A DNA stretch of 64,000 bases, from assembly GCF_902770715.1 (NCBI RefSeq), contig NZ_CACXTS010000012.1, positions 441 through 64,440 of the forward strand. Direction: 5' to 3'. Position 1 is the first letter of the stretch; each line of letters begins with the position of its first letter. The stretch comes from an uncultured Methanobrevibacter sp. (GTDB lineage: Archaea > Methanobacteriota > Methanobacteria > Methanobacteriales > Methanobacteriaceae). The position numbers and the translations under genes are program-made. Positions 43,509-47,480 of this stretch are shown here, in pieces. The notes beneath the pieces were generated by a model. The model ran no database searches and was not told where the DNA came from. It saw only the letters and a program-made list of their open reading frames with translations.

Positions 43509-44084
43509 ATGGCTGATAAAAAAGCACCTGCAGATGGCTGGCCTGTAATCAGTGGGGATTACATTGTTGGGGACCCTGAAAGTCCCGTGGCTGTTACAAC
43601 TTTGGCTTCTCATATTGAAGCTGATTTATCTGGAGCAGCAATTGCAGGACCATGTAAAACTGAAAACTTAGGTATTGAAAAAGTTGTAGCAAATATTATT
43701 TCAAATCCGAATATTAGGTTCTTGATTTTGGCTGGTGCTGAAGTGCAAGGTCACATTACTGGTCAAAGTATTCAAGCATTGTACGATAACGGTGCGGATC
43801 CAGATAAGAAGAAAATTATCGGCGCTACTGGTGCTATTCCTTTCGTAGAGAATGTCCCTCTCGACGGTATTGAAAGGTTCCAGCAACAATTGGAAATAGT
43901 TGATTTGATTGATACCGAAGATATTGGCGCAATTCAATCAAAGATTAATGAATGCGTTGAAAAGGACCCTGGGGCATTGGAAGAAGATCCTATTGTTATG
44001 GAAGTTGACGAAGAAAATGAGAGACTTGTAATCGTTGAAGATAAGGACGACGATGATGATGAAGAAGATGAGGCTGAAGAATAA
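43509..44084 (+). CDS. Soluble MtrA-like protein (methyl-H4MPT:CoM methyltransferase subunit A paralogue)
   Basis: This 191-residue protein matches the cytoplasmic corrinoid-binding domain of Mtr[41 protein letters not shown] and [20 protein letters not shown], whose His is the likely cobalt ligand. It lacks the C-terminal region and membrane helix of true MtrA and ends instead in an acidic tail with five successive Asp. No other mtr gene is nearby, so it is not the subunit of the mtr operon. It may be a soluble corrinoid carrier. AGGAGG lies before the ATG. Confidence 0.87.
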
Positions 44085-44260: not shown

Positions 44261-44268
44261 TTTATATA
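44261..44268 (+). promoter_or_regulatory. TATA box, proximal promoter with overlapping inverted repeat
   Basis: TTTATATA is followed by inverted arms TATAC (44265-44269) and GTATA (44274-44278) that overlap it. A protein bound there would block the TATA-binding protein. It would drive the unit beginning at 44401 with a leader of about 110 bases. Confidence 0.5.
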
Positions 44269-44400
44269 CTATTGTATACAAAATATGATTACAAAATTAA
44301 ATCTTCATTGCAAAAATGCAGATTATTTGTAATTGTATTTTCAAAAAAATATTGTTGAACTCCTCCACAAAAGTGGATTTAAAAAAATAGAGGTGATAAT

Positions 44401-44757
44401 ATGAATGATTACCCAACTAACTCCATCAACTGGAGTGAAAAAGTCAAAAACTTAGACGAAAACATCAGGCGTGAAATCGGGCTTGAAGGGGATAATGAAG
44501 CAAAGCATATCCTAATTAAGGTCCAAACCAAATCCGCCGAAGCCATCGAACCAGCGTTCATAGTAGGGGAAGATGAAACATTCCTTGATTTATTTGTTTT
44601 GTCTCCGCAGGGTGCAGGGATTACATCAACTGCCGTTTTGAAGGACAACATTCAAAGCGTTGGTGTAATAGGCGGCGTTTCTGCTGAAAAATTGGACCCA
44701 TCAGAAGTACCTGATGAAAAGCCATTGATTGACGATGTTAGCGCATTGTATCAGTGA
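44401..44757 (+). CDS. Unrecognised protein, first gene of HsdS/HsdM-like unit
   Basis: This 118-residue soluble acidic protein appears to have a mixed helix and strand fold. I see no catalytic motif and do not recognise the family. AGGTGAT gives a very strong ribosome binding site. Its stop region carries the GAGGT site for the next gene, 7 bases on. It is the first gene of a unit that continues into HsdS-like and HsdM-like genes, so a linked role is possible. Confidence 0.72.
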   Translation: MNDYPTNSINWSEKVKNLDENIRREIGLEGDNEAKHILIKVQTKSAEAIEPAFIVGEDETFLDLFVLSPQGAGITSTAVLKDNIQSVGVIGGVSAEKLDPSEVPDEKPLIDDVSALYQ

Positions 44758-44764
44758 GGTAGAA

Positions 44765-45160
44765 ATGTCCAGATACAGGCATAATAAAAGGTCAAGACAG
44801 TCAAACAATGAGTATTATGAAAGGGAGCAGCTGATTAACCGAAAGATTAAGGAGTTTAAAAACAACTTCTACAATCTTTCAAATCCTCCTATAGCATCTG
44901 AATACCACAAAATGGATGCTTTAAGAAAGGAGATAAAATATCTGCTCGGACTTCAGGAGTATCAAGTCTGGCAAAAATCATACAACCGCAAACATGCTTA
45001 TTTCAGCCAACTCTCCCTTTTTAAATCAATATATATGATGTGGAAACGCTTCACATGCTTTGTATACCTTGAAGAATACCACCACGTTCCCCATCATATT
45101 GCTATGTGGGCCAAAATCATTGGCTCAACATTGGTTCCAGGCAGGTGCTTTGGAACCTAA
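44765..45160 (+). CDS. Unrecognised basic protein
   Basis: From ATG 44765 the protein has 131 residues and a strongly basic N-terminus (MSRYRHNKRSRQ). A helical middle follows, and near the C-terminus there is a His-rich stretch (EEYHHVPHHIAMWAKIIG). It could bind nucleic acid, but no known fold is visible. GAGGT lies 4 bases before this ATG; an in-frame ATG at 44729 lies inside the previous gene and lacks a site. The HsdS-like gene follows after 41 bases. Confidence 0.65.
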   Translation: MSRYRHNKRSRQSNNEYYEREQLINRKIKEFKNNFYNLSNPPIASEYHKMDALRKEIKYLLGLQEYQVWQKSYNRKHAYFSQLSLFKSIYMMWKRFTCFVYLEEYHHVPHHIAMWAKIIGSTLVPGRCFGT

Positions 45161-45201
45161 TTTTTATATTTTATTAAAATAAACTATAATTAGTGAGAAA
45201 G

Positions 45202-45768
45202 ATGCATGATGTAAAACTAAAAGATATTGCAGAGATATACTCTGGTCTTTCATATAGGCGTTATCTAGACGATAACGGAGTGGAATGCGATGTCGTCGTT
45301 CAAAGATCCATCAAGGGAGATGGAGTCATCAACGATTTTGAAAAAATCAGGCTAAATTCAGAAATTAAGGAAAGGTTTTTTTCAAAAAAATGTGACGTGT
45401 TGATGAGAATGCCATATCCATTTGATGTAGTTCACCCAAACCTGGAAGGCCTTGTAATAAGCGATAGAATCGCCATTATAAGACTTCATAACAACCATGA
45501 CCCAGCATTTATTGCTCATTTACTCACCAATGCCCATGTTAAAAAACAATTGCATGACATTGGAAGTACAGAAAGAATACCACATATATCCATCAAAGAA
45601 ATTAAGGAAATCAACCTCAGAGTCCCCGATTATGAAACACAGGTAAAATACGGGGAGCTCCTAAACACCATTAATGAAAAAATCGCCCAGGATTTGAAAG
45701 TTGTGGAATATGACAGGCGTCTCAAAGAGGGAATTTTAAACAAGCTTTGGGGGCAAGATGATGAATAG
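45202..45768 (+). CDS. HsdS-like half-size specificity protein
   Basis: The protein (188 residues) resembles one half of a type I restriction-modification specificity subunit: an N-terminal target-recognition domain (VKLKDIAEIYSGLSYRR to about residue 145) and a C-terminal helix (YGELLNTINEKIAQDL). Full HsdS proteins have two such halves and about 400 residues, so this one would have to act as a dimer. Its end overlaps the start of the HsdM-like gene by 11 bases. ATG 45202 with GTGAG before it is preferred over GTG 45193. No HsdR is nearby. Confidence 0.77.
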   Translation: MHDVKLKDIAEIYSGLSYRRYLDDNGVECDVVVQRSIKGDGVINDFEKIRLNSEIKERFFSKKCDVLMRMPYPFDVVHPNLEGLVISDRIAIIRLHNNHDPAFIAHLLTNAHVKKQLHDIGSTERIPHISIKEIKEINLRVPDYETQVKYGELLNTINEKIAQDLKVVEYDRRLKEGILNKLWGQDDE

Positions 45769-47449
45769 GCAGAAACGATCATCAAACAACACAATTTTCA
45801 GAAACATCAGAACCAAACTTAGACAGGCAGACTACTCCCGAGATGTCTCTTATCTTTTGGTTTTTACATTTTTATATAAATACTGTTCTGATTCACTTAA
45901 GGATTATTTTTTAAGCGCAATTGAAGATAAGGAAATCACCCTGGATGAAGCTTTCAGAGATTCCTATTATCGGGAAGTATTTAGGGATGATGCATTTCAC
46001 ATGTTCGGATACTACATCAACAATCCCGAAGCGTACATTGATGAAGTAATCAACACCAAATATCAGGAAAGATTCTTTTTATCATCATTCTTTTCATCAT
46101 TCAGTAAGAATATCGAGTTTGTTCCGAATTCAAATTATGAAAAATACTTTAAATTCCTGTTTGATGCATTTAAAAGGGAAATCAACATTGACAAGTTGGA
46201 ATATGACTCTGAACATAATCTGCTTTATAAAGACATTATCTATTCCATTTCGAAATTGGATATATATGAAGAAAAATTCCCGTTCAGCGAAGTTTTCAAC
46301 CAGATTTGCCAATTCAGAAACATCAATATTGACCATGATCCCGATTATGTCAATTATATTCTAACGGAATTGGTCTGTGCAAGCAAATCATCGCCGATGG
46401 ATGTTTATAATCCGTTTTTGAATGATGCATCTTCACTGGTTAAATTATCAGAGAAATTTCCATTCAGTTACGGCAAATCTTATGGAAAGGGTTATGATGA
46501 GATTACCTACTGCGTAAGTATTGTAAATATGCTGATGCACTACTTCGATTTGGATAATGTATTTTTAGAATTCGGAAATTCAATTGATTCAGTCGATATC
46601 AATGGAGCTTCATTTGATGTAATCATGTCAAAATTCCCACACATCGGCGGTTGGAGTTCAAAAGCCAGAAATAAGGTTCAGAATATTGAATTGGCAAAGA
46701 GGAACAGAAGAAGAAAACTTGAAAATGTACTTTCAAAAAACTTTAAAATGGATGAAAACTCCTTTGCAAACGATTCACAGCTGAATGATGCTCTGGAAAA
46801 TTTACTCGAACAAATTGATGATGAATTCAACTCCCAAATTCAATTCACAGGCGAGTACGAATCACTCAAGGACAGTGAATATCTGTTCCTTATTAATTTG
46901 ATCAATTGCCTTAAAAATGATGGAGTCATGGTCGTATCACTTTCCCAAAGCTTCCTATTCAAGAATTCGCTTGAGACATTGAGAAAATACTTAACCTATG
47001 AGAATAACTTCATTGACACTATCATAAGCATGCCTGACGTTCTTGGAAGATATTCAAGGCCTGAAATCATTTGTGTATTCAAGAAAAACAAGTCCGATGA
47101 CAATGTTTTATTCATTGATCTCTCACAAGGTTTCGATACAAAAAGAGCCCATAATGCTTTGCCGGGTGCGTTCAAGAGGAACTTGCTATTGGATGATAAA
47201 ACAGTCAGCAAACTTGTTAAAACATACGTCAATAAGGAAATCATTGACAGATATTCAAATGTTGTAAAAATATCAGATATTGTTAGAAATGACTTTAATC
47301 TGTCTGTTTCAAGATATGTTGACACATTTGAAGGCGAATTCATTCAACTAAGTGATTTGACTCATGAAAAAGAAGAAATCACCTCAAATATTAAAGAGTT
47401 AAATAAGAAAATTGATAAAATGATGGATGAATTGGATATTAAGTTTTAG
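45758..47449 (+). CDS. HsdM-like protein with degenerate methyltransferase motifs
   Basis: This 563-residue protein follows the layout of type I N6-adenine methyltransferase subunits: a helical N-terminal domain (RNIRTKLRQADYSRDVSYLL), a central methyltransferase fold, NFIDTIISMPDVLGRYSRPE and the C-terminal FNLSVSRYVDTFEG. The SAM-binding motif reads YNPFLNDASSL where DPxCGSGG is usual (about 216-226). The catalytic NPP(F/Y) reads SKFPHIGG (about 291-298). It has probably lost DNA methylation while keeping its fold and its HsdS-like partner. It is the last gene of the unit, and a terminator hairpin follows. Confidence 0.8.
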   Translation: MMNRQKRSSNNTIFRNIRTKLRQADYSRDVSYLLVFTFLYKYCSDSLKDYFLSAIEDKEITLDEAFRDSYYREVFRDDAFHMFGYYINNPEAYIDEVINTKYQERFFLSSFFSSFSKNIEFVPNSNYEKYFKFLFDAFKREINIDKLEYDSEHNLLYKDIIYSISKLDIYEEKFPFSEVFNQICQFRNINIDHDPDYVNYILTELVCASKSSPMDVYNPFLNDASSLVKLSEKFPFSYGKSYGKGYDEITYCVSIVNMLMHYFDLDNVFLEFGNSIDSVDINGASFDVIMSKFPHIGGWSSKARNKVQNIELAKRNRRRKLENVLSKNFKMDENSFANDSQLNDALENLLEQIDDEFNSQIQFTGEYESLKDSEYLFLINLINCLKNDGVMVVSLSQSFLFKNSLETLRKYLTYENNFIDTIISMPDVLGRYSRPEIICVFKKNKSDDNVLFIDLSQGFDTKRAHNALPGAFKRNLLLDDKTVSKLVKTYVNKEIIDRYSNVVKISDIVRNDFNLSVSRYVDTFEGEFIQLSDLTHEKEEITSNIKELNKKIDKMMDELDIKF

Positions 47450-47480
47450 GACGGAATTTCCTGTCCTCAACATTTTTTTT
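47448..47480 (+). terminator. Intrinsic terminator after the HsdM-like gene
   Basis: AGGAC-GGAA (47448-47456) pairs with TTCC-GTCCT (47458-47467, one bulged T), and eight T residues follow at 47473-47480. The stem begins within the stop codon of the HsdM-like gene. Confidence 0.7.

Follow-up and report, generated by a model that had tools for sequence, protein, structure and literature searches.

We report on an operon of four genes, here called s1, s2, S and M, located in a 64,000-nucleotide stretch of DNA (the window; positions 441 to 64,440 of contig NZ_CACXTS010000012.1, assembly GCF_902770715.1) from the 2.1 Mb draft genome of an uncultured Methanobrevibacter sp. S and M resemble the specificity and modification subunits, HsdS and HsdM, of type I restriction-modification systems. 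In all 40 species where the operon was identified M is devoid of both catalytic motifs, and the S-M pair appears to have been acquired once and retained vertically, at one locus and under constraint. We tentatively propose that a type I methyltransferase (MTase) core was domesticated a single time in an ancestor of these gut methanogens and became a dedicated DNA- or nucleic-acid-binding complex with a core regulatory role.

M (45758-47449, forward strand, as all features described here) encodes an HsdM-like pseudo-methyltransferase of 563 residues in an intact frame. It matches the Pfam family N6_Mtase (E 1e-26), and its score against the hsdM model TIGR00497 (63.5 bits) is below the cut-off of 242.75. 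The first-pass annotation, made by a model from the sequence alone, had described a degenerate HsdM with NDA in place of the S-adenosylmethionine (SAM) loop and KFPH in place of the NPPF/Y box. Alignment to EcoR124I M and to the HsdM of PDB entry 3LKD bears this out: the whole HsdM layout is kept, while the sequence reads YNPFLNDASSL at motif I and KFPHI at motif IV.

The family search covered 139 genomes, 67 of them from the window's genus (Methanobrevibacter-related). Full-length M was found in 40 genomes, all within this genus and with one copy each; besides the window's own there are 39 homologues, with identities of 38-81%. These are clearly separate from active HsdMs, whose match is confined mainly to the C-terminal 190 residues. 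GxG is absent from motif I in 40 of 40 M sequences, the typical replacement being [DN]PFLxD[GAS]S, and motif IV lacks both its Asn and its aromatic residue in every one. The combination of GxG with NPP(Y/F/W) that marks active gamma-class MTases thus occurs in none of the 40, whereas ten out of ten active HsdMs of the same genus display DP[TA]CGSGSL and NPP[FY]. Since the loss is common to all M sequences, it must be older than the radiation of the clade; no homologue combining intact motifs with the same gene order turned up among them. By the loss of both motifs M is predicted to be catalytically inactive.

S (45202-45768, with an alternative GTG start at 45193) encodes 188 residues in an intact frame. 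As had been recognized in the first annotation, it is a half-size HsdS, with one specificity domain and one helical arm; its match to Methylase_S (PF01420; 26.1 bits against a cut-off of 22) covers a single domain. S is present in all 40 operons, where it shares 59-87% identity with the copy in the window, and in each of them it overlaps M (by 11 nt in the window) or directly adjoins it. Its conservation is even along the chain, at 60-78% in each block of about 30 residues, and the specificity domain is no exception. The specificity domains of ordinary HsdS proteins vary between strains, and a type I S subunit carries two such variable target-recognition domains (TRDs), whereas S has one, conserved across species. 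This implies either one fixed target or a structural role.

Gene order is equally stable. s1, S and M are adjacent and in identical order in 40 of 40 genomes, and wherever a contig reaches the flanks the operon lies between an orphan mtrA (PF04208), usually upstream, and a convergent gfcR downstream. s2 accompanies them in 14 operons and is an optional partner, not an essential part, so that the earlier suggestion of four genes kept together holds for s1-S-M and fails for s2. HsdR had been noted as missing, and none is encoded beside the operon in any of the 40 loci, although a type I system has an HsdR nuclease/translocase subunit encoded with, or acting with, M and S; the HsdR genes of the window genome (on C11 and C21) and its true N6-MTases sit on other contigs. 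Almost all relatives that have named records belong to Methanobrevibacter, M. thaueri among them, and they come mostly from ruminants and other animals.

We then placed these operons on a species tree built from four flanking core genes of 70 loci, a few carriers without marker genes on their contig being left out. One clade of 41 species (support 100) comprises 37 carriers, three genomes with s1 only and one with nothing. The carrier state takes five changes on this tree and, judging from these sequences, is best read as one gain of S-M at the base of the clade followed by four losses. The losses are clean, leaving no S or M remnants. A further s1-only genome, the fourth in total, branches off before the 41-species clade parts from its sister group, and another genus of the same family has more distant relatives of s1; s1 is therefore older than S-M. 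Protein distances follow those of the flanking core genes (Mantel 0.47 for M, 0.35 for S and 0.57 for s1; 0 of 999 permutations as high). A phase-variable or mobile restriction-modification island was considered and rejected, the operon having one locus and one copy.

In the M tree, the 40 sequences group in a single clade (100/100) whose stem measures 2.96 changes per site; any placement of M among the active HsdMs is tentative. Such a tree resembles that of a neofunctionalised protein, with fast change after recruitment and constraint thereafter. In 12 species pairs, several of them with synonymous sites near saturation, the ratio of nonsynonymous to synonymous substitution rates (dN/dS) was 0.04-0.14 (M), 0.03-0.11 (S), 0.015-0.21 (s1) and 0.08-0.13 (s2). 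Conservation is uneven along M: mean identity is 71% in residues 361-410 and 65% in 511-563, against 35-47% in the first 360 residues, which hold the N-terminal half and the old catalytic core. The best-kept C-terminal half is where the contacts with HsdS should presumably lie.

These data bear on the simplest alternative, that the operon is a decaying type I remnant without function. Catalytic motifs and HsdR are indeed gone, and S-M was lost in four lineages. Decay is, however, hardly compatible with 40 intact frames and dN/dS values mostly of 0.02-0.14, with S and M overlapping or directly adjacent throughout, or with the conserved promoter spacing and leader described below. Being close to refuted by the selection test, this explanation is extremely improbable, and the initial view that the loss of catalysis looks selected is upheld by the strong purifying selection. 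Chance, an assembly artefact or a pseudogene is ruled out on the same grounds, by 40 genomes with intact frames and low dN/dS.

Where S and M came from is suggested by active type I systems of the same genus. Four of them (L149, L150, L151 and L154) encode a short HsdS of up to 184 residues directly upstream of hsdM, and in a fifth (L155) the short HsdS precedes hsdR. A profile of S scores best with these short subunits and with those of Fusobacteria and Arcobacter records (E 5e-34 to 1e-19); long HsdS subunits score behind them. Active type I systems with a short HsdS gene placed before hsdM (in Methanobrevibacter loci L149, L150, L151 and L154, and in Arcobacter and Fusobacteria records L195 and L196) are thus more widespread than the report from staphylococci indicates. 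That report describes the hsdRSMS arrangement, R-S(short)-M-S(long), in which the short subunit is invariant and needed for clean modification (PMC10030836). Given the relatedness of the short subunits and the S-before-M layout, S-M is best regarded as what was left, short S and M, when an hsdRSMS-like system lost HsdR and the long HsdS.

This descent raises the possibility that dead M and short S enter resident active HsdM/HsdS/HsdR complexes and tune restriction, either in a dominant-negative way or by modulating assembly. In favour of this, S traces back to short HsdS subunits of type I systems within its own genus, proper modification in S. xylosus requires a short HsdS (PMC10030836), and the part of M presumed to contact S is the best conserved. 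On the other hand, a related HsdM does not co-occur with the operon, being present in only 8 of the 40 carriers and 6 of the genus's 27 non-carriers, which makes a modulator of resident systems less likely than a DNA-binding complex. Mixed complexes are also unlikely in view of the stem of 2.96 changes per site, and the conserved partner s1 is part of no type I system seen. Taken together, we consider such a modulator decidedly unlikely.

The most conserved partner is s1 (44401-44757), an acidic protein of 118 residues in an intact frame, 71-97% identical in 40 species and with a conserved C-terminal LYQ. The first-pass annotation listed s1 and s2 as unknown small proteins, and profile searches matched neither; for s1, no relatives were found in Pfam, NCBIfam or PDB, and s1 defines a new protein family. 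Its AlphaFold2 model, of moderate quality (predicted local distance difference test, pLDDT, 73), shows an N-terminal helix and a five-stranded small beta barrel. This predicted topology fits the Sm fold, and Foldseek found weak likeness, mostly to Hfq, Gemin (Gemin6/7), Sm and other small barrels, with a best E of 0.011. The Sm1/Sm2 sequence profile of Sm/LSm/Hfq proteins is absent: s1 has no Pfam LSM match, and hhalign to a profile of native SmAP gave nothing. s2 (44765-45160) is a basic, His-rich protein of 131 residues, frame intact, modelled as all-helical; a fold search found no structural relatives.

Several further loci contain s1-like genes. A divergent paralogue with the same C-terminal LYQ belongs to another conserved cluster (L181-L187; e.g. 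L181:4974-5267), which also holds proteins of SseB-like, zinc-ribbon and LXG-like type, as well as one with weak similarity to the C-terminus of BrxL. In another genus of the family (L188-L191), s1 relatives form a tandem pair, with a TPR/OB-fold protein near in two loci. On one short contig (L117:337-4085), a TFB-like transcription factor lies between relatives of s1 and s2, an arrangement that hints at an s1-s2 association before the arrival of S-M.

Upstream of s1, promoter-like sequence had been noted before, and we located an archaeal-type pair (44261-44291): a TATA box, TTTATATA (44261-44268), and, about 27-30 nt after it, the initiator-like ATTACA (A at 44291). The spacing from TATA to the site, ATTR in general form, is 27 nt and identical in most S-M carriers; no matching promoter was seen in s1-only genomes. 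Between this site and s1, carriers have an untranslated leader of about 105-190 nt with inverted repeats. In the window it spans 44291-44400, from the inferred transcript start to the s1 start codon, and its last hairpin 5' of the ribosome binding site is the inverted repeat TCCAC-AAAA-GTGGA (44364-44377).

The leaders of 39 carriers fold better than their shuffled versions (mean z -1.63; 16 of 39 below -2), as opposed to those of the four s1-only genomes (z -0.02). In a subclade of six species, 94.7% of cells are paired, and one of 500 shuffles matched the covariation score; compensatory changes may be present there, six related sequences being weak proof. For the two larger subclades, aligned with MAFFT, RNAalifold predicted no pairs in one case and four in the other, so that the claim of RNA structure rests on single-sequence folding together with this one subclade. 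Loop lengths are variable between carriers. An Rfam search gave no match near gathering level; two sub-threshold snoRNA matches were judged to be chance.

In sister clades, the leader repeat has the form CACC-N12-GGTG. The sister-clade element CACCATTGTWTTTTAAGGTG was found, whether 0-1 or two mismatches were allowed, at this operon only in nine of ten genomes tested, the tenth belonging to a clade with a different leader form. A regulon for CACCATTGTWTTTTAAGGTG was rejected, as elsewhere only weak three-mismatch matches exist. The same applies to CCAC-N4/5-GTGG as a genome-wide DNA target: it is not enriched in the window's own genome (17 occurrences, against 17 for the reversed control), and its spacer differs between species. 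A structured leader tied to S-M carriers, with an element unique in each genome tested, suggests feedback control.

The leader and s1 together allow another explanation, in which s1, an Sm/Hfq-like barrel, is the working protein, an RNA chaperone or scaffold, while S-M acts on RNA, for instance its own leader, or serves as an assembly partner, genomic DNA not being its target. It is in accord with s1 being the oldest, most conserved and last-kept gene, with its predicted small beta barrel and structural matches mostly to Hfq and Gemin6/7, and with some compensatory changes and variable loop lengths in the leader. Weighed against these are a Foldseek E of only 0.011 on a moderate model, no profile likeness to native Sm proteins, the nature of type I specificity domains, which are DNA readers, and the persistence of s1 without a structured leader in four genomes. 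We regard this explanation as unlikely, if worth keeping in mind.

The first-pass annotation also raised a defence-related role. In that case, the dead recognition complex would sense invading DNA or an attack on DNA, with s1 (and s2, where present) acting as its effector or as a partner that binds RNA. Points in favour are the operon's origin in a restriction system and the frequent neighbourhood of HIRAN-like and ARPP-1 genes. Yet the operon is a strongly conserved, vertically inherited, single-copy feature of one core-genome locus, with no nuclease or ATPase and no recombination-variable TRDs. Apart from subunits that matched type I systems generically (and MADS weakly), PADLOC detected no systems, and no s1 relative was present in the phage records and viral contigs searched, for which reason a phage or viral origin of the gene was rejected as well. 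A defence module of this unusual kind is therefore unlikely, and the original suggestion is not supported.

We return to a dead M-S complex reused as a fixed-specificity, probably self-regulating DNA-binding complex that works with s1, a reading we judge from sequence to be plausible but still short of probable. The first annotation's idea that the complex reads a DNA site without methylating it has indirect support in the conserved specificity domain of S and the well-kept C-terminal half of M. In this scheme the DNA-recognition core of a type I MTase was retained after catalysis had been lost. Two copies each of M and half-size S would assemble as in the 2M+2S Type 1 1/2 MTases such as M.AhdI, and the complex would recognise a single fixed site, bipartite and probably palindromic, that it neither methylates nor cuts. 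It would thus act as a DNA-binding regulator or a marker of chromosomal sites. The older small-beta-barrel protein of the operon, s1, would be its partner, and the complex would probably feed back on its own operon via the leader. Engineered and natural enzymes offer an analogy: in them HsdM and a half-size HsdS form dimers that recognise bipartite sites with palindromic symmetry (PMC6158711, PMC3874165), M.AhdI being 2M+2S (PMC3874165). With catalysis gone, the simplest product could well be a site-specific DNA-binding complex.

Several points weigh against this reading. No target site was found outside the operon, the leader element occurring once per genome and CCAC-N4/5-GTGG at control level, and the leader repeats could act as RNA instead of as DNA operators. 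Four lineages lost S-M cleanly, hence the pair is dispensable. Finally, S is most closely related to short HsdS subunits, and the one of S. xylosus has been argued to be no DNA reader (PMC10030836); S may likewise be structural and not a reader.

Some features of the locus remain to be described. Tight spacing, another early observation, applies to most joins of the window operon, the exception being the 41 nt gap between s2 and S. A terminator-like hairpin at the s2 end and a TATA-like stretch before S lie at 45133-45190; operons bearing s2 may have a second start site for S-M. The terminator noted earlier was located as a terminator-like hairpin followed by a T-rich stretch (47448-47467), and as all four frames proved intact, the four-gene unit first described is real. 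In 27 of 40 loci (e.g. L036 and L059), a convergent pair, an ARPP-1 domain gene and a weak HIRAN-domain gene, lies between M and gfcR. On the other side, the window encodes at 43509-44084 an MtrA (PF04208) outside any mtr operon, with a strongly acidic C-terminal tail, which adjoins the operon in most species.

Parts of restriction-modification systems tend to be mobile and to change fast. In about 40 species of animal-gut methanogens, the recognition core is a stable single-copy feature of the core genome, its chemistry having been lost, and the label "type I restriction-modification subunit M/S" would mislead on the function of these genes. In the open-access literature searched, we found no description of this operon, nor any earlier one of a type I M-S complex that is catalytically dead and passed on vertically. 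If our proposal is true, it represents a clear prokaryotic case of a restriction-modification complex turned into a non-enzymatic binding machine.

Among known systems, staphylococcal hsdRSMS (Staphylococcus xylosus/equorum, PMC10030836) shares with the operon a short HsdS gene directly 5' of hsdM (40 of 40 operons; 191 residues against 188 in S), and its HsdMs are clear relatives of M (E 1e-67). Sequence homology does not extend to the staphylococcal HsdS_short, which a search with the S profile did not report at E up to 10. The window operon further differs in having neither HsdR nor long HsdS, in its putatively dead M and in the extra s1 and s2, and it occupies a fixed core locus, whereas hsdRSMS is found on mobile elements. 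With the Type 1 1/2 MTases (M.AhdI, M.BsaBI and M.PshAI, PMC3874165; engineered, PMC6158711) it has in common a one-TRD S and an HsdM-type M as separate subunits and, as could be expected from the genes alone, 2M+2S assembly and a palindromic site. Those enzymes methylate adenine in a palindromic bipartite site; M, lacking motifs I and IV, probably does not, and the operon has no cognate nuclease. The nearest solved structures to M are EcoR124I HsdM (7BST) and the HsdM of 3LKD. EcoR124I M and its active relatives keep GSG and NPPF/Y, and their likeness to M is strong only C-terminally. Dead methyltransferase partners such as METTL14 likewise retain the methyltransferase fold for binding in place of catalysis, but the operon encodes no active methyltransferase partner.

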